64,000 nt of DNA from contig NZ_CP037920.1 of the NCBI RefSeq assembly GCF_007748195.1, forward strand, positions 124,001 to 188,000, in the 5' to 3' direction. The stretch comes from Gimesia aquarii. Lineage in GTDB: Bacteria; Planctomycetota; Planctomycetia; Planctomycetales; Planctomycetaceae. Positions 11,175 through 26,178 of the stretch are shown here, piece after piece. Position numbers and translations under genes: made by a program. Positions within the stretch are counted from its first letter, which is position 1. Each line of letters begins with the position of its first letter. The notes under the pieces were generated by a model. That model was not told the origin of the DNA, did no database searches, and saw nothing but the letters and a program-made list of their open reading frames with translations.

Positions 11175-13361
11175 TTATTCACCTGGAAGCCAGAGTTTCT
11201 GTCCTGAGCTGGAACTATCGTCAGGTGTTGTATCCCCAGGAGACCAAATGCCTTCCCCGGAAGAATTGCCTAGCTCTCCTAAAGTTGATTCGGTCATCCA
11301 GGATACATCAAGATCAAATGCCTGCGCGAAAGCTTTGAGATAGTCTTTGATTTGTGGGGTCTTTTTACCATACTGATCCCAAATCTGTTTCATAAATCCT
11401 GAAAGTCCGGGATCGGATGTATCTTCCAATCGAAATGAGAGTTCTCGCATTTTCCATTGCAGCTCACTTTCAAAAGCGTTGGTTGGTTGTGATTGAGCAT
11501 TTTCCTGACCTTTATGAATCCAGGAGAGTGTCTCATTTCGATGGTTACGTTTATGGCAAATTTCAGTCAATGTCGAATATACCCGGTCTAGGTCGACTTC
11601 TTTTTTACATTCTTCACGCCCCAAGATTTCAAGTAAAACATCATACAGAAAACGTGGATGCCTTATGAGTAATGCGCGGTTGAATATATACATCAATTGC
11701 GCATCGCTTAGCTCTTTCGCTGGAATTCTGTTTTGAGTCATAGATGAGCAGGTGTTAAAGCGGGAGGACTCATCAACATCAAAATGGGGAAGTTCTGAAA
11801 TGCCGAGTTTGGGATCGAGCTCGGCAAACTGCAGGAAATGACCTAATGAAAGTGATTGTGCATCGAGTACATAAGCCGCCGCAGTTAAAGCGACTTTCAG
11901 ATCATCTTCACTCGCAGCTTCCCAAGGAGTTTTTTCATTTAGGCCTGCTAACTTTGTATTAGACCAGACTTCAGAGAGAAGTTTTTTCCATTGTTGTGCT
12001 TCAAGTTCTCTACGTTTGATAATAGGCATTTTCTGTGGAAAACTCCACCGAAAAAAGAGAGGCCATTGTTCTGAAGGGATGGGAGAGAGCGGGTTACTGG
12101 ACGCTTCGTGATCTTGATCTAATAATTTTAGACCACAGTCTTTTTTGCCTTGTTCATCTAAGGCTTCATCAAGAATTTTTTCTGCTAAAGAGATTTGCTC
12201 CCCTTCGTAAGCATACAGTCGAACGATCGCAGGTTGATCCATCTGTCGGTCAGCATCAAAGACATCAATATCGCCAATCACGACCGGCACATTATCAATG
12301 TGAATCTCTTCTCCCTTTGATTCTGCATTGACGGGAGAGCTTACAATTTGAAAGTATGCGGTAGGTATATTTTCATCCGAATCCTGGTCTTGTTCTGAGG
12401 GAACATTTCCTCGCAGTATCTGATGGTGTTTTTCTAATAATGTGAGGAACTTGGAAAGCGAATCAACTTCGTAAACTTTTTCTATGGAATCAATGACTTC
12501 ATCTGTGTTGTTTAAATCAAGCAATTGTGCCAGAGTTTCGAGTTCTACTGCTTCAGCAAAGTCGTTCTCTAGTTTCGCAGCTTCATGAAATAGTTCAGCT
12601 GATTGTGTTTCATCGGTTGCCCAGGCGTAACAGAATGCGGCATTTTTCCATAAAGTTACCTGACCCGTTGCTTCTGCAAGTTGTTTGAACAAGCCAGCTG
12701 CTAATCGGTAACATCCCAAATTAGCAAGTCGTTGTGCGCGTTCAAATGTTTCTTGATGTTCAGAATTTTCAATAGGGCATCGTTCCAGGACATGTACTCC
12801 GCGGAACTGATAAGGAATTTGATCGTCACCGTCAAATTCTAACAGATTCATAAACAAGTTCTGTTGATACTCTTGTGAAGCAACGCGCATTGCCAACGCG
12901 AAATGCTCACGTGCTGCTAAATAAAAACCGCGCATTTGTAACGCGATCGCGATGCTGATCGCCAACGGTGTTGCCAAACTAACATCGACGGCAGCGCACT
13001 TTTGCAACGCGGAGTAAATAGTTTTTTGTGCTTGCTTGTAGCCTTGAGCAAGAAAAGTTGAGGTGGCCAATAAGGAATGGGCGGCGGGATGATCCGGGTC
13101 ACGTTCCAAACATTCTTCCAGAGGCTTGCAGGCATCTTCAAACCGTCTTTCAGCCATTAAAATTTGGGCTTCTGTTATGAAACTCAAAGGTTGTTCAGGG
13201 TGATTCTTCTTGAGTCGATCCAGCAACTGCAGTGCAGTTGCTGTCTGGTGCGTTTCATGCAGGTGTGAAATTTTACTGATTTCTTCGCCAATCGAATGAC
13301 AACAGAATTTGTATTTCTTTCCGCTATTGCAGGGGCAAGGATCGTAAGAATCGATACTCAT
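11175..13361 (-). CDS. SEC-C motif and TPR-repeat protein
   Basis: I start at ATG 13361, where the SEC-C zinc motif begins (DPCPCNSGKKYKFCCH, residues 6-21); the longer frame to 13484 adds 41 unrelated residues. After the zinc motif come TPR-like helix pairs over about residues 30-280 (for example AHSLLATSTFLAQGYKQAQK), then an acidic middle and a helical C-terminus ending in a Ser/Gly/Pro-rich tail. SEC-C motifs mediate zinc-dependent protein contacts, as in SecA, so this is probably a cytosolic adaptor or chaperone-like protein, 728 aa. Partner unknown. It is upstream of ribD with a gap near 90 bp. Confidence 0.85.
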   Translation of the reverse strand: MSIDSYDPCPCNSGKKYKFCCHSIGEEISKISHLHETHQTATALQLLDRLKKNHPEQPLSFITEAQILMAERRFEDACKPLEECLERDPDHPAAHSLLATSTFLAQGYKQAQKTIYSALQKCAAVDVSLATPLAISIAIALQMRGFYLAAREHFALAMRVASQEYQQNLFMNLLEFDGDDQIPYQFRGVHVLERCPIENSEHQETFERAQRLANLGCYRLAAGLFKQLAEATGQVTLWKNAAFCYAWATDETQSAELFHEAAKLENDFAEAVELETLAQLLDLNNTDEVIDSIEKVYEVDSLSKFLTLLEKHHQILRGNVPSEQDQDSDENIPTAYFQIVSSPVNAESKGEEIHIDNVPVVIGDIDVFDADRQMDQPAIVRLYAYEGEQISLAEKILDEALDEQGKKDCGLKLLDQDHEASSNPLSPIPSEQWPLFFRWSFPQKMPIIKRRELEAQQWKKLLSEVWSNTKLAGLNEKTPWEAASEDDLKVALTAAAYVLDAQSLSLGHFLQFAELDPKLGISELPHFDVDESSRFNTCSSMTQNRIPAKELSDAQLMYIFNRALLIRHPRFLYDVLLEILGREECKKEVDLDRVYSTLTEICHKRNHRNETLSWIHKGQENAQSQPTNAFESELQWKMRELSFRLEDTSDPGLSGFMKQIWDQYGKKTPQIKDYLKAFAQAFDLDVSWMTESTLGELGNSSGEGIWSPGDTTPDDSSSSGQKLWLPGE

Positions 13362-13629
13362 AACCTCGGCCTTCTTTGTTTTCAGGAGGTTGTATTGTGG
13401 AATTGTATCTCTAAGTGAAAACAGAGTTCTCTTGTAGAATCGAAGCAGCATTACGCTTTTTTGAATTACAATAGAGTTCAACAAAACATCATATCATAAA
13501 AGAAACGTAGATTGCACGCGCTTAACGATTCCATCTGAGAGAAATTACATACTCCCTTACCAAGATTAACATTTTGTTCAATCAGGCGGGTTTATTCTAC
13601 AAATCGATGGGAGTGCGATGGTGGTCAGA

Positions 13630-14775
13630 TTAGCTATCCAAGGCTTGCTTCATGTCAGCAATCAGGTCATCACTGTTTTCGATTCCAACTGAGACTCGAA
13701 CTGTTTTTTCAGTAATTCCCGCCGCGCGCCTTGCTTCCAGAGTCATTGAGGCATGGCTCATGCTTTCCGGGTATTCAATCAATGATTCCACTCCCCCCAG
13801 TGATTCTGCCAGGAGAAACAATTTTGTATTTAACATGACTTTTTCAGCAGCAGGTCGGCCTTCTTTCACATCAAAACTCAGCATCCCTCCGAAGCCATCT
13901 TGCTGACTCTTTGCTAATTCATGATCTGGGTGTGACTCCAAGCCCGGATAGTAAACATGTTCTACTTTGGGATGTGTTTCCAGCATTCGAGCTAAAGCCA
14001 TTGCCCCATGCTGATGCGCTTCCATACGAGGCCCCAGAGTTTTGATGCCACGTAAGACCAGCCAAGCATCGAAGGGAGAGCACCCCAGTCCGAGTGAATT
14101 CGAATTATAAGCGACTCGTTCGGCGAGTTCTTCAGTACGTGATATGACACAACCACCGACGACGTCTGAATGCCCATTCAAGTATTTTGTTGTCGAATGT
14201 ATAACAATATCGACACCATATTCAATCGGTCGTTGAAGATAAGGAGAACAAAATGTATTGTCAGCGATTGTGGTAATATCGGTATCTGCATCAGAGGCAA
14301 CTTTGACTACGGCTTGAATATCGACAAGGTTCATTAAAGGATTACTGGGAGTTTCGATCCAGATCGCTTTGGTTTCTGGTGTCAATGCTGATTTGACATT
14401 CTCAATATCTCCCATTTTTACAAATGAGAATTTGATTCCCCATTTTGTAAAAACATCTGCAAACAAACGATACGTTCCACCATAAATGTCATCTCCTGCG
14501 ATGATATGGTCACCAGGTTTAAATAAATGCATAACCAGAGTGATCGCAGACATTCCAGTTGAAGTAGCACGGCAAGACACGCCACATTCTAATGCAGCAA
14601 TGTTTTCCTCCATGGCACTTCGAGTTGGATTTCCACTACGTGTGTAATCGAAGCCCTTGTGGTTTTCCAAGCTATCCCAGTAAAAGGTTGATGTTGTATA
14701 AATGGGGGTTGTACAGCTGTTAAATGTACCGTCTTTGTCGACTCCAGTATGAACACACTTCGTTTCAAAACGCAT
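13630..14775 (-). CDS. Cystathionine gamma-synthase/beta-lyase family PLP enzyme
   Basis: From ATG 14775 the product has 381 residues, the usual length for this family. It carries TRSGNPTRSAMEENIAALE, the TSTGMSAI cofactor segment, SNPLMNLVDI, DNTFCSPYLQRP, and the Schiff-base lysine at K197 in STTKYLNGHSDVVGG. The reaction is trans-sulfuration or direct sulfhydrylation around cystathionine/homocysteine; MetB, MetC and CGL cannot be separated by eye. The next gene upstream on the same strand is cysK, ~260 bp away, consistent with sulfur amino-acid metabolism. No SAM riboswitch signature was noticed in the spacer. Confidence 0.9.
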   Translation of the reverse strand: MRFETKCVHTGVDKDGTFNSCTTPIYTTSTFYWDSLENHKGFDYTRSGNPTRSAMEENIAALECGVSCRATSTGMSAITLVMHLFKPGDHIIAGDDIYGGTYRLFADVFTKWGIKFSFVKMGDIENVKSALTPETKAIWIETPSNPLMNLVDIQAVVKVASDADTDITTIADNTFCSPYLQRPIEYGVDIVIHSTTKYLNGHSDVVGGCVISRTEELAERVAYNSNSLGLGCSPFDAWLVLRGIKTLGPRMEAHQHGAMALARMLETHPKVEHVYYPGLESHPDHELAKSQQDGFGGMLSFDVKEGRPAAEKVMLNTKLFLLAESLGGVESLIEYPESMSHASMTLEARRAAGITEKTVRVSVGIENSDDLIADMKQALDS

Positions 14776-20764: not shown

Positions 20765-21019
20765 ATGACGGAATCAAACAAATACATTGAGTCAGATAAA
20801 TTTGCATTTGATCTTGTTGCAAATATTGTAAGTTCTCCGGGTGCTTTTCCTCAGACAGGAAAATACAGTAGTAAAATTTGGGCGCAGCTGTTTGGAATGA
20901 CAGAAAAAAATTTTAAGGAACTTTTAAAAGAATCTGGCATCCCTTATTTTAAATTTGGGAGCAATGTTATTGTTGATGCACAAGATTTTTGGAAAAATCA
21001 GGGGCAGAAGGAATCATGA
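20765..21019 (+). CDS. Small HTH (excisionase/MerR-like) DNA-binding protein
   Basis: 84 aa. Residues about 36-75 match the pattern of helix-turn-helix domains of the excisionase/HTH_17 type: SSKIWAQLFGMTEKNFKELL, a turn, then GIPYFKFGSNVIVDAQDFW, in which the wing reads like the usual G-x-K-x-G-x-x-I-x-x-x-D-F-W ending. The product probably binds DNA as a regulator or recombination directionality factor. A perfect 15-bp palindrome lies upstream. Its stop overlaps an ATG (ATGA) that opens only a 17-codon frame, hinting that a coupled second gene has been lost. Confidence 0.7.
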   Translation: MTESNKYIESDKFAFDLVANIVSSPGAFPQTGKYSSKIWAQLFGMTEKNFKELLKESGIPYFKFGSNVIVDAQDFWKNQGQKES

Positions 21020-21069
21020 ACGAGCTCAGATCGTTTGATGGAGCGGGACAGATGGTAAATAGAATTTGA
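21016..21069 (+). other. 17-codon frame coupled to the HTH gene, possible gene remnant
   Basis: ATG 21016 overlaps the HTH stop codon (ATGA), a typical coupling arrangement, but the frame ends after 17 codons at 21069. It may be the start of a deleted or frameshifted second gene, or chance. Confidence 0.2.
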
Positions 21070-21262
21070 TTTACGCTTAGAAAATGAGCATGATTTACTC
21101 AGTTGTCGAAAAGGCGTTTAAAGATAAGAAATACTAAAAAATTTCTGATCTTAGCTCACTATCTATTATGCCCCAAGCTAGAATTATTGGAGACCTTTAG
21201 TGATGTTTAATTATCAGTAAAGTACTTTTTTCTCTTGATAGAAATTATATAATTGAGAAGCT

Positions 21263-21601
21263 ATGGCAAAGTGTGATCAAGGTTATCTCTGCGTTGTGTG
21301 TGGTCGAGAGGTCGAGAAGATCGAAGACAGCGCGCTCTATCTGCGTTATATTATTGGAGAAGTAGACGAAGATGAATTGAACTCGCAACCCGAGCATCAT
21401 ATTCGATGCAATCCTATTTTAGCTCAATTCATTACCGATGATCACTTTGAACCGGTTTTTGTAGAGGGACCATTTGATAAACGTGAACTTGATTCGTCTG
21501 AGGCTTTGCTAAGAGAGAAGTTAATCACTGATGGCTGGAGAAGACTATGCGAGGTAAAAAGCAAAAATATCACAATCAGTGAATTTCCATTAAAAGAATA
21601 A
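21263..21601 (+). CDS. Small Cys-containing protein, probably planctomycete-conserved
   Basis: 112 aa, soluble. The N-terminus GYLCVVCGREVEKIEDSALYL has a CxxC knuckle, followed by EHHIRCNPILAQFI with one more His/Cys pair, so one metal site (Cys, Cys, His, Cys) is possible. The style resembles small conserved planctomycete proteins, from memory and not verified. It ends at 21601 and is followed by a strong terminator, so it is a single-gene unit separate from the downstream cassette. Function unknown. Confidence 0.75.
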   Translation: MAKCDQGYLCVVCGREVEKIEDSALYLRYIIGEVDEDELNSQPEHHIRCNPILAQFITDDHFEPVFVEGPFDKRELDSSEALLREKLITDGWRRLCEVKSKNITISEFPLKE

Positions 21602-21807: not shown

Positions 21808-22053
21808 ATGCCTGAAACAATACGCAAAGGAATTTTTATTCCAGCATGGGTGATTGCATGTGTTTTTTCTCCCATTATTGCTGGAGGTGTTGGAGCTGTT
21901 ACGTGGACTGCCAAAACATTGATCGAACATAGTCAGCGACTAATAGAAATTGATGAAAAGCTCGATTCCAATAAAGAGTTACTCATCGAAATGGTGAATT
22001 CGCATGAGAGGCGGATCAGTCGATTAGAAGACAAGGCTTTTGGAGAAAATTGA
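21808..22053 (+). CDS. Holin-like small membrane protein with coiled-coil tail
   Basis: Starting at ATG 21808 gives 81 aa; a longer TTG frame from 21718 overlaps the terminator and is unlikely. One transmembrane helix covers about residues 9-31 (FIPAWVIACVFSPIIAGGVGA) and the rest is a charged helix (IEIDEKLDSNKELLIEMVNSH) with coiled-coil spacing. This one-helix-plus-coil layout is seen in small phage membrane proteins next to lysis genes. It overlaps the next gene by one base (TGATG). No family could be fixed by motif. Confidence 0.65.
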   Translation: MPETIRKGIFIPAWVIACVFSPIIAGGVGAVTWTAKTLIEHSQRLIEIDEKLDSNKELLIEMVNSHERRISRLEDKAFGEN

Positions 22054-22427
22054 TGATTGAAATCACGACTGACGATCTGCCAGCCAAGCTTATCCAACTA
22101 ATGGAAGGTCCCACACCTCCCGTTTATTTTGTTTCGAATGGTTGTAGTTTCTCTCCAGATCGGTGGGGAGGTGTTGACATCAGGGCAGCCTGCCACTGGC
22201 ATGATTACGCCTATCAAATAGGCGGTTGCAAGCAGGATCGCCAAATAGCTGATTCGTCATTTTATCGAAATCTCAGACGCTGCGACTTAGGAAAGTTCAT
22301 GGCGAATATTTATTACCGCCGTGTGCGGTTGTTTGGAGTTGCCGCTTTTAACTGGGCTGAAGGGAAAGTCCCTTTGAATCCCTGGCATTACTGTTTACTG
22401 TTTTTTGAAAGGTACATTCAATGGTGA
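22053..22427 (+). CDS. Phospholipase A2-like protein with CxxHDxxY motif
   Basis: Start ATG 22053 (GGAGA 8 nt upstream), 124 aa. The motif NGCSFSPDRWGG at 29-40 looks like a glycine-rich calcium loop, and C47-H50-D51-Y54 in AACHWHDYAYQIGG matches the CxxHDxxY active-site helix of phospholipase A2-type proteins, with D67 in DRQIADSSFYRNL as a candidate second Asp. Parvovirus VP1 and some prophage proteins use the same HDxxY pattern. It could attack host or target membranes during lysis or entry. The C-terminus has an aromatic, amphipathic segment. It lies between the holin-like and protease genes, overlapping the latter by 7 bp. Confidence 0.65.
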   Translation: MIEITTDDLPAKLIQLMEGPTPPVYFVSNGCSFSPDRWGGVDIRAACHWHDYAYQIGGCKQDRQIADSSFYRNLRRCDLGKFMANIYYRRVRLFGVAAFNWAEGKVPLNPWHYCLLFFERYIQW

Positions 22428-23263
22428 GGGTAATCACTATTATCGTTGTGCTGATATTGGCCACTATTGTGCAGGCTCAGGCATTGGTTCTCCGAACGGT
22501 GGGAAAGCAATGTACTGCTTATGGTTGCCACCAAATCATTGGTACGGGAGCTTGTGCCTACATCGGAAACATTGATGACAGGTCGATTTATTTGACAGCT
22601 GCTCATAACCTGGAAGGGAACCCGGCAGTGTTTGTTGGCTATGCAGGCAGGTGGTGGCAAGCCAAAGTCATCCATAAGCGATATCAAAAAAATATCGATT
22701 ATGCTGTGATCGAAACACAGAAAATATCAGCCAATAGATGTTTTAAAATAGCAGAGCATCAACCCGACAATGGTGTTGATGCAGTGGCTTATGGCTATGC
22801 AAATGGTATCTATAACATGAAGACCATCAGAGCAAAAATTCGAGTGAACAGAAATGGGAGATTCTTTTCGAAGCTCGTTGCCAAGGGCGATTCAGGTGGA
22901 CCAATTGTCGTGAATGATCGCATTGTGGGAATAATTAAAGGTCACGATTACAAGAACACACTCTATACAGAATCGGACCTGATTAGAGTTGAGTTATTCA
23001 GAATTTATGGAAGGTTGCCTGCGTGTGGGGGATCAGTGATTATTGCGGAAAACCCACCAAAGCCTGATACTCCCGTTCCAAAATATGATGAAGAAATCGC
23101 CATATTGGAGGGGGAAATTTCAAAATTACGAGGGCAGTTAGATCAGCTTTCAAAAACAAAAATACCAGTTCAAATCATAGGTTCAAACAATAAGGTCTTA
23201 AGCGAGCAAAAATACCTGCTTGGCGACCCTATTAAACTACGTTTTAAAGCCGTTAAAAAGTGA
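22421..23263 (+). CDS. Secreted trypsin-like serine protease with coiled-coil tail
   Basis: 280 aa. Signal peptide about 1-20 (VITIIVVLILATIVQAQA). The chymotrypsin-fold triad is readable: H62 in YLTAAHNLEG, D93 in KNIDYAVIET and S158 in AKGDSGGPIVV, with GIIKG after the oxyanion loop. Cys residues at 31, 36 and 45 may form disulfides. After residue ~200 comes a Pro-rich linker and a coiled coil (EEIAILEGEISKLRGQLDQL). GAAAGG at 22407-22412 supports ATG 22421. A secreted protease in a phage-like operon could mature or degrade envelope proteins; the target is unknown. Confidence 0.85.
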   Translation: MVRVITIIVVLILATIVQAQALVLRTVGKQCTAYGCHQIIGTGACAYIGNIDDRSIYLTAAHNLEGNPAVFVGYAGRWWQAKVIHKRYQKNIDYAVIETQKISANRCFKIAEHQPDNGVDAVAYGYANGIYNMKTIRAKIRVNRNGRFFSKLVAKGDSGGPIVVNDRIVGIIKGHDYKNTLYTESDLIRVELFRIYGRLPACGGSVIIAENPPKPDTPVPKYDEEIAILEGEISKLRGQLDQLSKTKIPVQIIGSNNKVLSEQKYLLGDPIKLRFKAVKK

Positions 23264-23272
23264 GGCCTCATA

Positions 23273-23545
23273 ATGCCAGGCGGCGAGATTTTAGATGTTG
23301 AAATCCCTATTGAGGATGAAGGAGAAAAGGAGATGGCTGCTGTGGATTTATCGGAAAACGTTGCGAATCACATGTTGACGCAACTCATGCAAACCGGGAC
23401 TGTGGCACAGAATAACTTTGTGACCGTTCAAAAAATTGTTGATTATGACTATTTGGAAAACAAGCGAATGGTAACCCTTGATGAAGCGGTTGGTATTCGT
23501 GAGGTTCAATCCAAAGTCAATCCAGGTGGGCCGGCTGCTGCATAA
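23273..23545 (+). CDS. Small acidic protein of unknown function
   Basis: 90 aa, no signal or membrane segment. The N-terminus is very acidic (VEIPIEDEGEKEM), the middle is helical (SENVANHMLTQLMQTGTVAQN) and the tail is Gly/Pro/Ala. A GAGG sequence before ATG 23273 and the tight spacing on both sides support a real gene. It could be a small virion or scaffold component; no family recognised. Confidence 0.65.
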   Translation: MPGGEILDVEIPIEDEGEKEMAAVDLSENVANHMLTQLMQTGTVAQNNFVTVQKIVDYDYLENKRMVTLDEAVGIREVQSKVNPGGPAAA

Positions 23546-23793
23546 TGGACGATCCTCTGGAAGAATTGATCAGGCAAAACAATGAGTTTCATAACAGCTT
23601 GATTGAACAGAACAACGAGTTAGACCGAGCGTTTCAAAACGGAACGTTCGGTCAACTTGTACAATTATGGAGCGAAAAAAATGATGGAGGAGACCCAACC
23701 GAAGACGTGGCAGGAGAAGGTAGCGAAACAGTTTTGGTCAATCAAAGCAGGGGAGAGAGCGGAGAATTTGCGGCAAGCGAGCCGCCGATTTAA
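23545..23793 (+). CDS. Small helical protein, overlaps the next gene out of frame
   Basis: 82 aa. The first half is strongly helical and Asn/Glu-rich (LIRQNNEFHNSLIEQNNELD), the second half is Gly/Glu/Ser-rich and looks disordered. ATG 23545 shares a base with the previous stop (TAATG). From 23681 on, the same DNA also encodes the next protein in another frame. The low-complexity tail may simply be imposed by that overlap; the first half is the better supported part. Confidence 0.55.
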   Translation: MDDPLEELIRQNNEFHNSLIEQNNELDRAFQNGTFGQLVQLWSEKNDGGDPTEDVAGEGSETVLVNQSRGESGEFAASEPPI

Positions 23794-24109
23794 CAATGTC
23801 GAATCGTTGGTGATGTCCACACGAGAAAAACTACTCGGGAAAGAGATCACAAACAATAATCGCCCAGAGGGTGAGGATATGCATATCGGAGACGACAATA
23901 GTGTGATTCATCAGTATCTGTCAGCAGAGAAGAAAGGAACTGCAGGTACAATCGCCAAGCTAACATTGGGTGCGGGAATGCTCGCTATGGGTGCAGGTGT
24001 GCCGATTGGTGGTTGGTTGATTGCAGAGGCTTTGAAAAACAATTCCGTTAAAGAGGTCGTAATACCCATTGATAGCGATACTTTATTTGATTTAGAGCTG
24101 GTGAAGTAA
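23681..24109 (+). CDS. Small membrane protein of unknown function, 142 aa
   Basis: Start ATG 23681 is preferred because GGAG lies 9 nt upstream; the TTG at 23657 has no site. The N-terminal half is a basic, helical segment (KTWQEKVAKQFWSIKAGERA), and a glycine-rich hydrophobic segment covers about residues 90-115 (KLTLGAGMLAMGAGVPIGGW). HIGDDNSVIHQYLS precedes it. One membrane helix with a cytosolic N-terminus is likely. The first 113 bp overlap the previous gene in a different frame. No family recognised; a phage minor membrane protein is possible. Confidence 0.62.
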   Translation: MMEETQPKTWQEKVAKQFWSIKAGERAENLRQASRRFNNVESLVMSTREKLLGKEITNNNRPEGEDMHIGDDNSVIHQYLSAEKKGTAGTIAKLTLGAGMLAMGAGVPIGGWLIAEALKNNSVKEVVIPIDSDTLFDLELVK

Positions 24110-24240: not shown

Positions 24241-24501
24241 ATGCCTCATTTTATTGTTTATCTTGCTCGTGAAAAAAATCAACGTCCTGTAAAACGTCTT
24301 GATTGTGAAGCGCAAACACATGTATTGGCGGCGAAATTGATGGAAGCTGAATATCCTGATTTGGTAGTCAATTCTGTACTGGTAAAGCATGAACCGATTT
24401 CGTCTTGTTCACGATGCGGAGCACCAATTTTTAAAGGCGATTATCACAAAGATCAGATACGCCAGCGCTATGGAGCCAATCGCTGTTTGGACTGTATGTA
24501 A
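24241..24501 (+). CDS. Small zinc-ribbon protein
   Basis: From ATG 24241 (AGGA upstream) the product has 86 aa; ATG 24184 would add 19 basic residues. The C-terminal third is a treble-clef-like zinc site: CSRCGAPIFKGDYHKDQIRQ followed by NRCLDCM, giving two CxxC pairs. The N-terminal part is a small alpha/beta unit (MPHFIVYLAREKNQRPVKRL). It lies just before the ParB-like gene; it could be a nucleic-acid-binding helper. In phage Mu a small zinc protein (Com) controls translation of the mom gene, but no homology is claimed. Confidence 0.65.
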   Translation: MPHFIVYLAREKNQRPVKRLDCEAQTHVLAAKLMEAEYPDLVVNSVLVKHEPISSCSRCGAPIFKGDYHKDQIRQRYGANRCLDCM

Positions 24502-24529
24502 TAGAACTTAAAACGAGTGATTATGTAAA

Positions 24530-25081
24530 ATGAAAGACCGCGTAAAAAGCTTCCGGCGTATTAAAGCTTCACAACTCAAACGCAATGTGAAAAACTGGCG
24601 CGTTCATCCTCCATCACAAAAGTCAGCATTAAGTACAATTCTAAGAGATGTAGGGTTTGCTTCGGCTTGCCTTGTAAGAGATTGTAACAATGGGACGTTC
24701 GAATTAATTGATGGTCATTTACGCGCTGATCTCGCTGAAGATGAAAAAGTCCCATGCCTGATTTTGGATGTGACAAAATCTGAAGCCGATAAAATATTGG
24801 CAACATTTGATATGGTTACATCCATGGCAGACGCTGATCAGATTGCATTAGATAAATTGATTTCTTCGATTTCTACCGAATCAAAGGAACTACAGAATTT
24901 ACTGAATACTCTGATAAGTCATGATTCTGAATTGTTGGAAATGGTAACCGGTAAAGACGAGTCACATCTCTTAACAGACTCTTTCAGTATTTTGATTGAT
25001 TGCAAAGATGAATCCGAACAGGTAATGCTTTTACAGCGACTGAAAAAAGAAGGTCTGACATGTCGCGCGTGGATATTATAA
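24530..25081 (+). CDS. ParB/sulfiredoxin-like domain protein
   Basis: 183 aa. The N-terminal ~95 residues follow the ParB-like nuclease/Srx fold: RIKASQLKRNVKNWRVHP at the start, a strand with ILRDVGFASACLVRD, then LIDGHLRADLAED at 59-71, which matches the conserved ParB box (DGHxRxxA). The C-terminal part is helical and ends in a segment with QVMLLQRLKKEGLTCRAWIL. Phage ParB-like proteins often sit beside methyltransferases, terminases or modification enzymes and may act as CTP-dependent clamps or nucleases. The next gene starts inside this one (22-bp overlap), so the two are translationally coupled. Confidence 0.8.
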   Translation: MKDRVKSFRRIKASQLKRNVKNWRVHPPSQKSALSTILRDVGFASACLVRDCNNGTFELIDGHLRADLAEDEKVPCLILDVTKSEADKILATFDMVTSMADADQIALDKLISSISTESKELQNLLNTLISHDSELLEMVTGKDESHLLTDSFSILIDCKDESEQVMLLQRLKKEGLTCRAWIL

Positions 25082-26178
25082 AGGAAAGTAATATCGTACG
25101 GACTCCTCGTGTCATGCAACTAGAGGGGATATTTGGCATTGCAGTTGAAAAAAAGAGCCGTGTTGAGTTTTCTGTAGAACTACCTCTAAATGATCACACA
25201 TGGAACATTGGTTTAATTGTCGGTCCTTCTGGATGTGGAAAGACTACCATTGCCAAAACGCTTTTCCATAAAGAGTTGATTAGAGACTTCAAATGGTTTG
25301 AAAACAAAAGTATTCTGGACTCTTTTCCTAAGGATATGGGAATTAAAGAAATCACAGGCCTCCTTTCTTCAGTTGGTTTTTCTTCACCTCCCAGTTGGTT
25401 AAGACCATTTCGTGTACTTTCCAATGGCGAACAGTTTCGTGTGACGATAGCACGGGCTTTAGCCGAGCAACCAGAATTTGTGGTCATCGATGAGTTTACG
25501 TCAGCCGTTGATCGGACTGTTGCCCAAATCGGAAGTAGTGCCATTGCAAAATCAGTTCGGAGAAGGCAGCAAAAATTTATCGCCGTTACGTGCCATTACG
25601 ACATTATCGACTGGCTTAATCCTGACTGGATTTATCAACCAGCGTCTGAGGAATTTCAATGGAGGTATGAAAGGCAGTCGCGACCCCCGATTTCCCTCAA
25701 AATTATTAACGTGCATCGAAGTGCGTGGTCACTATTCCGGAAACATCACTATTTAGATTCAACAATTCATAAGTCTGCTAACTGTTTTATAGCATTAGTC
25801 GACGATAAGCCAGCAGCTTTCACTGCAGTGATTCATTTTCCACACAAAACAACCCCATCATTCAGAGAGCATCGAACAGTCTGTCTCCCTGACTTTCAAG
25901 GAGTTGGTATTGGAAATGCCATGAGTGAGTATGTGGCATCTCTTTACGTTTGCAAGAAACCGTACACAAGTGTCACAGGACACCCTGCCATGATTCGCCA
26001 TCGAGCGAGGTCAAGTTTATGGAGAATGACTCGCAAACCATCTACAGTTCAGCATCAATATGGCTTAGAGCGAATCAGAAAAAGTCGAGTTTCTGGCAGT
26101 GCGGGAAGAATTACCGCCAGCTTTCAATTTATCGGCGCGGGACGAAAGAAAGAAGCAATGAAATTTGGCCTGATTTGA
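25060..26178 (+). CDS. ABC-type ATPase fused to a GNAT-like acetyltransferase (COG2401-like)
   Basis: 372 aa, soluble. N-terminal ABC ATPase: Walker A GPSGCGKT at 55-62, signature LSNGE at 120-124, Walker B VVIDE at 141-145 and H-loop H179. C-terminal GNAT-like domain about 213-315: WSLFRKHHYL, FIALVDDKPAAFTAVIHF, then FQGVGIGNAM at 279-288, matching the acetyl-CoA pyrophosphate loop (Q/RxxGxG/A). It has no membrane partner, so it is not a transporter. COG2401 groups ABC ATPases fused to predicted acetyltransferases, and Mu Mom, which modifies adenine in DNA, also has a GNAT fold. A role in base modification with the coupled ParB-like protein is my inference. Confidence 0.83.
   Translation: MSRVDIIKESNIVRTPRVMQLEGIFGIAVEKKSRVEFSVELPLNDHTWNIGLIVGPSGCGKTTIAKTLFHKELIRDFKWFENKSILDSFPKDMGIKEITGLLSSVGFSSPPSWLRPFRVLSNGEQFRVTIARALAEQPEFVVIDEFTSAVDRTVAQIGSSAIAKSVRRRQQKFIAVTCHYDIIDWLNPDWIYQPASEEFQWRYERQSRPPISLKIINVHRSAWSLFRKHHYLDSTIHKSANCFIALVDDKPAAFTAVIHFPHKTTPSFREHRTVCLPDFQGVGIGNAMSEYVASLYVCKKPYTSVTGHPAMIRHRARSSLWRMTRKPSTVQHQYGLERIRKSRVSGSAGRITASFQFIGAGRKKEAMKFGLI

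Follow-up and report, generated by a model that had tools for sequence, protein, structure and literature searches.

A GNAT-type enzyme paired with an ABC ATPase has been predicted to acyl-modify DNA bases, in a review section that names pT24 (PMC7824862, section 3.4.7 (Iyer 2021), citing Iyer 2013 (NAR gkt573)). Because ABC-GNAT base acylation has thus been predicted in print (Iyer 2013 as cited in PMC7824862), the core idea pursued here is not new. The same review places Mom in the GNAT superfamily, and the Com protein acts on mom mRNA (PMC6483171). A search of titles and abstract beginnings found no test of the ABC-GNAT family. Here we describe a gene pair in a 64,000-nucleotide stretch of the Gimesia aquarii chromosome (contig NZ_CP037920.1, positions 124,001 to 188,000; "the window"), in which a gene for a ParB/Srx-like protein overlaps a gene for an ABC-ATPase/GNAT fusion (ABC-GNAT). 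We consider it rather probable, from sequence comparison and predicted structure, that this pair is the core of a predicted Mom-like DNA base-acylation module, ParB-guided and ATP-dependent, that was domesticated in Gimesia. The pair is made up as follows.

24530-25081, + strand: ParB/Srx-like partner gene, 183 amino acids (aa)
24545-24823, + strand: ParB/Srx domain of the partner, residues 6-98, whose predicted fold aligns to ParB/Noc
24974-25078, + strand: C-terminal tail module of the partner, about residues 149-183, aligned with the tails of other partners
25060-26178, + strand: ABC-ATPase/GNAT gene, 372 aa, phrog_11143
25060-25671, + strand: ABC ATPase half, residues 1-204, aligned by VIA-align to 6xji_C
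25672-26178, + strand: GNAT half, residues 205-372, with the QxxGxG acyl-CoA motif at 280-285

An earlier reading of the letters alone (the sequence-only reading) had described a ParB-like gene overlapping the ABC-GNAT gene by 22 bp. We confirmed these coordinates, with the 3' end of the ParB-like gene overlapping the ABC-GNAT start at 25060, and the position of the DGHLRAD box at residues 61-67. The ParB call was upheld by a clear match in PHROGs (2.7e-10), by a profile search of the PDB (Noc, 1.5e-19) and by the predicted fold, though the single-sequence Pfam match to ParB_N was weak (E 0.052). The AlphaFold model of the protein (mean predicted local distance difference test (pLDDT) 87.7) aligned to 6sdk_A (Z 12.8, root-mean-square deviation (rmsd) 1.9, 92 residues aligned) and to 7bnr_A (Z 13.0, rmsd 6.7, 124 aligned). 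Fold and sequence profile thus both place it in the ParB/Srx superfamily. The canonical ParB box is GERR, and the box of the window protein reads GHLR. The ParB domain also matches the N-terminal part of phrog_498, a DNA methyltransferase family. The tail, a C-terminal element of about 35 aa, showed a weak match (E ~0.01, residues 152-176) to phrog_28816, a family of free-standing tails of unknown function, and we propose that it serves as an adaptor to ABC-GNAT.

The full set of ABC ATPase motifs and the C-terminal GNAT-like FQGVGIG claimed for the second gene were all located: Walker A GPSGCGKTT (residues 55-63), the ABC signature LSNGE (120-124), Walker B VVIDEF (141-146), the H-loop H179 and FQGVGIG (279-285). 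The core residues of the ABC motifs and of QxxGxG are invariant or nearly so in an alignment of 56 sequences, the other 55 of which are 35-59% identical to the window protein. Within the GNAT half, W, F, Y, R, V, P, Q and G positions are invariant. A full-length match to phrog_11143 (1.5e-107, residues 14-362, profile positions 11-353 of 357), together with the intact ABC motifs and GNAT QxxGxG, assigns the protein to this family of unknown function. In the AlphaFold model (mean pLDDT 92.2, predicted template modelling score 0.85) the ABC domain is followed by a domain whose strand and helix order fits GNAT, and the ABC half aligned to 6xji_C with Z 15.4 and rmsd 2.7 over 178 residues. Single-sequence matches of the GNAT half were weak (Acetyltransf_7, E 1.1e-3; phrog_7693, 3.7e-4), and in a GNAT scan of its own 7.4-Mb genome it was the weakest of 26 matches, which marks it as a divergent GNAT. 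The sequence-only reading had named clear alignment with protein or small-molecule acetyltransferases as an argument against itself; a profile of the GNAT half gave only weak general acetyltransferase matches in the PDB (best 4e2a, E 0.016), and no single known family emerged.

We then followed the pair through 171 loci, 80 of them on viral contigs, 80 on genome contigs and 11 in phage records (150 without near-duplicates), which comprise the best similarity matches and 11 hand-chosen phage records rather than a random sample (L160 and L161 are Gimesia). ABC-GNAT matches were present in 78 of 50,697 phage records, 41 of them covering at least 80% of the protein; the Lactococcus phage P335 is another carrier of the enzyme. 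A separate gene for ParB plus tail was found in 132/171 loci, and ParB, tail and ABC-GNAT share one open reading frame (ORF) in two (L181 and L238); scanned alone, the L181 fusion matched phrog_498 and phrog_620 (ParB) and then phrog_11143. The tail occurred without a recognised ParB domain in 16/171 loci, two transposable phages among them, neither element was found in 15/171, and the contig end was too close in 6/171. These counts include artefacts of contig end or distance (L019, L196 and L213 among the tail-only rows, L188 among those with neither), and the 15 rows with neither became 12 in the tree test because the doubtful L188, L192 and L199 were removed by hand. Under alternative rules, 135 of the same 171 loci had a ParB of at least 100 aa, 11 had a short partner, 20 had no partner and 5 ran into a contig end. 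The E-values of the ParB and tail profiles are generous, because partners from these very loci went into building them. Free-standing short partners are 42-87 aa long, and the three that were scanned match phrog_28816; at L057, the tail is preceded by zinc-ribbon-like sequence in place of ParB.

Of the 86 loci with a ParB-like match, 61 have an in-frame ATG, GTG or TTG at exactly 22 bp ahead of the ParB stop (103 loci examined, near-duplicates kept, 14 of the 103 from Gimesia). This recurrent overlap and the phrog_11143 match argue that the pairing is beyond chance. In four phages that we read, the ParB/ABC-GNAT genes lie near the terminase, and in some phages ABC and GNAT are two genes behind ParB. 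The ParB-like protein and ABC-GNAT therefore form one conserved, translationally overlapped and twice fused unit, and the expectation that homologues would co-occur with the ParB-like gene, and in phages, was borne out. In the ABC-GNAT tree, the tail-less members (12 loci, of which the tree contains 8) group in a single clade (support 0.998) that includes the jumbo phage pT24 and the T4-like PX29. Split ABC and GNAT genes were read through in one frame for this tree, with stops as X, so the GNAT half of a few split-gene rows may be out of frame. In pT24 (L157:5001-6173), the ABC-GNAT frame is annotated as two coding sequences and contains an internal stop codon. A tRNA-Tyr lies just before ParB/ABC/GNAT in MismyG (L155:4320-4398).

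A relation to Mom was seen in two Arthrobacter phages, EastWest and Sonny, which share nine homologous gene pairs around one site, the sliding clamp and ParB included. Their ParB domains are 54.5% identical over 132 aa. At this site EastWest carries ABC-GNAT and a ParB with the tail (gp74 and gp75 form the pair; independent E-value of the tail 1.7e-15, for one of the tail profile's own sequences), and Sonny carries a Mom-like gene (Mu Mom, E 8e-8) and the ParB partner with a 74-aa gene between them. The Sonny ParB ends in a CxxC ribbon and lacks the tail; the EastWest ParB lacks the ribbon. Among 119 Mom loci, a set strongly redundant with Mu itself and with some contigs entered twice, 10 had a ParB-like ORF, six of them ending in a CxxC motif, and the same profiles found no tail in the ParB-like ORFs of these 119 loci. 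Transposable phages gave a second line of evidence. Komp_PAO1_1 (transposase, transposition protein, Gam) carries the tail protein, ABC-GNAT and a formyltransferase-like gene after its phage tail genes, and Porphyromonas phage007a (transposase, MuB-like protein, Gam) has the same three genes after its phage tail genes, last in the record. In Mu, com-mom likewise follows the phage tail genes, and the phage007a module stands at the right-end position of mom. A Mom-like role in DNA modification is the best reading because the phage module is conserved and ABC-GNAT occupies the place of Mom in related phages. In the Microbacterium phage Antuna (L273:4654-4728), a tRNA-Gly directly follows a ParB-like/Mom-like pair; this is suggestive, since the Mom adduct is glycine-like.

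The genes directly downstream of ABC-GNAT hint at the chemistry. Picked by a simple length rule that left 28 of the 150 loci without a pick, the 122 downstream ORFs gave seven Pfam matches to Formyl_trans_N, five to Asp_decarbox and two to ASCH (the scan covered 121 of the 122 picks, L204 being left out, and the annotated gene of L012). The others were mixed, with helix-turn-helix (HTH), sigma-70 region 4 and terminase domains among the first 25 of the 56 families listed. In our own search, 11 loci (9 without near-duplicates) had formyltransferase-like genes, the Gordonia phage Sisko being one carrier, and 8 (6) had aspartate decarboxylase (PanD) genes, as in phage Jace, the latter searched from a single seed without iteration. 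All of them overlap the ABC-GNAT end or lie at most 107 bp from it, and the 7,155 same-strand ORFs in the 171 loci yielded none elsewhere. In the tree, the loci with a formyltransferase-like gene group together in a clade of support 1.0, where they make up 9 of 15 members; of the other six members, L066, L068, L069 and L080 end within 2 bp of the end of ABC-GNAT, and L070 and L078 have sequence there without a formyltransferase. PanD-bearing loci are scattered over the tree. PanD depends on a catalytic Gly-Ser cleavage pair, which is kept in 6 of 7 aligned copies, the seventh being truncated, and formyltransferases have an N-H-D triad. These downstream genes suggest that the adduct may be an amine-bearing, amino-acid-like group. 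In one streptococcal and one oenococcal phage, the separate ABC and GNAT genes are followed by ASCH-domain genes (L155:6117-6482 and L011:5151-5528).

In Gimesia, the pair belongs to a fixed bacterial locus. ABC-GNAT is present in 16 of 17 genomes of the genus, the window included, with the other 15 copies 68-96% identical, and the ParB gene is present in the same 16; the single genome lacking both (G034) is 76% complete. Eleven genes between 20765 and 26178 keep their order and orientation in 14/14 other Gimesia genomes whose region was compared, and on the right flank PIG-L deacetylase and NagB orthologues follow in 13 of the 14 loci, the contig of L134 coming to an end. The ratio of nonsynonymous to synonymous substitution rates (dN/dS) was 0.08-0.33 for abcgnat and 0.09-0.27 for parB over seven Gimesia pairs. 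Distances between abcgnat copies track those of the flanking nagB (r 0.959, with 0 of 2000 permutations as high; 13 genomes), and the Walker, signature, H-loop and GNAT key residues are kept in 15 Gimesia copies, one copy being cut by its contig. This synteny, together with the dN/dS values, the nagB-like distances and the kept residues, shows that an intact ABC-GNAT is vertically inherited in Gimesia under purifying selection. Synteny of the block in the Gimesia genomes compared led us to reject a recent prophage cassette. Anti-restriction, the benefit that the sequence-only reading suggested, is possibly only one of several, the cassette being a fixed bacterial locus and not a mobile phage.

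Three observations concern the variation of this and similar blocks. A response-regulator gene lies between the 20765-21019 gene and the rest in 8 of 10 Gimesia intervals read, and is missing from L133 and L134 (the two nearest relatives) and from the window, which has a 0.2-kb gap there (21019-21263). At L146, the phospholipase-A2-like (PLA2-like) gene (11578-13748) is interrupted by about 1.8 kb, with the remaining cassette kept. The surroundings of the Nonomuraea and Endozoicomonas ABC-GNAT copies are conserved too: in four loci from Endozoicomonas and one from Salinisphaera sp. G21_0 (L208, L209, L215, L219 and L220) ParB/ABC-GNAT sits inside a block conserved among them, possibly another fixed or prophage-borne copy.

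The remaining genes of the Gimesia cassette lie upstream of the pair.

20765-21019, + strand: small HTH-like gene with which the conserved block begins on the left (HTH by look, weak family matches), in 14/14 Gimesia loci; it may be a host gene
21263-21601, + strand: 112-aa conserved protein without a family match, with Gimesia orthologues
21808-22053, + strand: small protein that appears to span the membrane once, holin-like in appearance only
22053-22427, + strand: PLA2-like protein with a CHxHD motif (profile against PLA2 structures, best 1.3e-8)
22421-23263, + strand: trypsin-like serine protease with an apparent signal peptide (Trypsin_2, 7.9e-5)
23273-23545, 23545-23793 and 23657-24109, + strand: three small genes, in 14/14 Gimesia loci and also in viral contig L360
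24241-24501, + strand: zinc-ribbon protein with two CxxC, 86 aa, in 14/14 Gimesia loci

The small genes 23545-23793 and 23657-24109 overlap in different frames. For the 21808-22053 protein, no family was found in Pfam or NCBIfam, and the best PHROG match was 0.058. No multi-span membrane protein was seen in the cassette, judged by eye, in agreement with the claim that the ATPase has no membrane partner. Relatives of the PLA2-like gene were found in 2 of the 40 viral-contig stretches matching its patterns (77% and 63% identical). In both contigs (L360 and L361) a protease homologue follows; the three small genes have homologues in L360 too, and in L361 a large terminase (phrog_38, 3.2e-29) stands some 3 kb beyond. 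On this homology the Gimesia cassette is taken to be phage-derived, as had been suggested. ParB/ABC-GNAT was absent from both of these 10-kb stretches. The L361 set (L361:4995-10325), in which the PLA2-like gene and a secreted trypsin-like protease precede the terminase, may be a lysis module suited to the envelopes of planctomycetes. A tblastn search of 97 viral, phage or other planctomycete loci, nearly all of which contain the pair or the enzyme, detected none of the other cassette genes, and a profile search gave one marginal match (E 0.012).

The small zinc-ribbon gene does lie just upstream of the pair, as first read. Its ORF is open from 24184, and three Gimesia orthologues align only from residue 20, which fits a start at 24241. 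Its proposed Com-like role did not hold: similarity to Mu Com was not significant (BLASTP E 0.21), the sole PHROG match was to phrog_26059 (0.065), which is not Com, and the gene was not found in the 97 other loci searched. We therefore rejected it as a Com.

We propose a mechanism in which the ParB domain would bind or clamp DNA and the C-terminal tail of the partner would dock ABC-GNAT. ATP-driven dimerisation of the ABC half may then place the enzyme on DNA or open the duplex, and the GNAT half could move an acyl or aminoacyl group from a coenzyme A (CoA)-type donor to an exocyclic base amine. The group may be finished or supplied by a further enzyme in some lineages, either formyltransferase-like or an aspartate decarboxylase. 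The modification would shield phage DNA from nucleases, and in Gimesia the exapted module would mark or protect host DNA. A broader synthesis is more speculative, and we hold it only tentatively: ParB would be a general DNA platform for interchangeable base-modifying enzymes, joined through swappable C-terminal adaptors (the tail for ABC-GNAT, a zinc ribbon for Mom, direct fusion for the methyltransferase); ABC-GNAT would add an amino-acid-like group that is formylated (formyltransferase-like) or built from beta-alanine (PanD); and a whole genus would have fixed the module as its own DNA mark.

Several observations weigh against a Mom-like, ParB-guided modification module. The clade of 12 loci without ParB or tail indicates that the partner is not indispensable, a ParB-like ORF is missing from the available stretch in 109 of the 119 Mom loci, and EastWest/Sonny is the sole syntenic Mom/ABC-GNAT phage pair examined. 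The Aeromonas phage PX29 (T4-like; L158, L278) carries a Mom-like gene at one place and an ABC-GNAT gene at another, so that the two are not always alternatives. Only 12 of the 122 downstream genes are a formyltransferase or PanD; in the 7 of 11 formyltransferase-like proteins that were aligned, the His and Asp of the triad are kept and the Asn is not, and the window itself has neither gene. For the small cassette gene 23545-23793, dN/dS values go as high as 0.81. In fold searches with ABC-GNAT, the ABC half filled the lists, mostly with transporter ATPases, and the GNAT half was seen by topology only. GNAT and Mom (phrog_1384) profiles gave no significant alignment (hhalign probability 1.3%, E 0.039), and an ordinary GNAT of the same genome scored 0.0018 compared with 0.13 for the best Mom protein. 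Sequence kinship of the GNAT half with Mom is thus without support, with a 1.3% hhalign probability and no Mom under E 0.13. For the Mom-like module that the sequence-only reading had put forward, we found conservation of the pair, occurrence in phages and a position at the site of Mom, and no support for kinship of the GNAT with Mom. That the module works like Mom is supported; that the enzyme is a Mom is not.

A GNAT half no nearer to Mom in sequence than ordinary GNATs would also suit an enzyme that acylates protein (ParB, RNA polymerase or another host protein), with ParB as a partition or transcription factor tuned in this way. The phage GNAT Rac targets RNA polymerase (PMC7824862), and the tail protein, which adjoins the enzyme in most loci, could be a substrate or regulator. 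We nevertheless consider this unlikely: a Mom-like enzyme occupies the same site in the syntenic Sonny, the same ParB domain type occurs within a DNA methyltransferase family, and tail-only partners offer no recognised ParB domain as a target.

A role in modifying RNA (tRNA or mRNA) is less probable still. It would follow the ATPase+GNAT enzyme TmcA, which makes N4-acetylcytidine; an ASCH protein hydrolyses acetylcytidine, and ASCH-domain genes lie downstream in two loci. The profile of the GNAT half also weakly matched RNA cytidine acetyltransferase (E 0.13). Set against this, ParB is a DNA-binding fold in solved relatives, the genes lie near the terminase in four phages read, and the site in Sonny is taken by a Mom-like gene, from a DNA enzyme family. 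We similarly doubt that the Gimesia cassette serves mainly in lysis or defence as a domesticated locus (protease, PLA2-like and membrane proteins) with the pair as sensor or effector and not modifier. In favour of this, all cassette genes are retained in 14 Gimesia loci, cassette genes other than the pair recur in two viral contigs, of which one has a terminase some 3 kb on, and the ABC half matches defence proteins, probably through the ABC fold (e.g. mad3, 1.8e-14). Against it, tblastn found none of the other cassette genes in the 97 loci nearly all holding the pair or enzyme, and the pair as a whole matched no PADLOC model.

If DNA base acylation by this module is correct, the decade-old prediction that ABC+GNAT acylates DNA becomes directly testable in laboratory phages, and EastWest and Sonny, sister phages differing at this locus, provide a natural control. 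It would also supply a likely partner (ParB with tail) and a hint at the chemistry (an amino-acid-like group, sometimes formylated). A phage DNA-modification module fixed in the chromosome of a bacterial genus would be an unusual host epigenetic mark.

The closest described system is the predicted ABC+GNAT system of PMC7824862, which has the same domain pair and whose pT24 is matched here (33.8% identity over 99% of the query). The account given there in section 3.4.7 does not mention a ParB partner, the tail, downstream enzymes or genus-wide fixation, which are added here. Our literature search found neither the ParB/tail partner nor its enzyme's alternation with Mom described, nor the downstream enzymes or the fixation in a genus, and Iyer 2013 may contain some of these. 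We add a partner with ParB and a tail of about 35 aa, separate or fused, in 134/171 loci, with the tail alone in 16; a locus shared by EastWest and Sonny for ABC-GNAT versus a Mom-like enzyme, with the tail swapped for a zinc ribbon; the position of the module after the phage tail genes in both transposable phages read; and formyltransferase-like or PanD genes directly downstream.

Other systems share parts of this arrangement. Mu Mom/Com has in common a GNAT-type enzyme, a phage context, the place after the phage tail genes and the alternation beside ParB; it differs in that Mom has no ABC ATPase, the sequence similarity is not significant and the zinc ribbon here is not Com. TmcA/NAT10, the RNA cytidine acetyltransferase, likewise combines an ATPase and a GNAT acting on a nucleic-acid base, but its ATPase is of helicase type, its substrate is RNA and the profile match is weak (E 0.13). 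In phrog_498 (ParB-DNA methyltransferase) and the phage ParB-like families phrog_620 and phrog_723, the same ParB domain type is joined to or stands beside a DNA-modifying enzyme; compared with phrog_498, the enzyme here is of acyltransferase and not methyltransferase type, and the partner ends in a specific tail.

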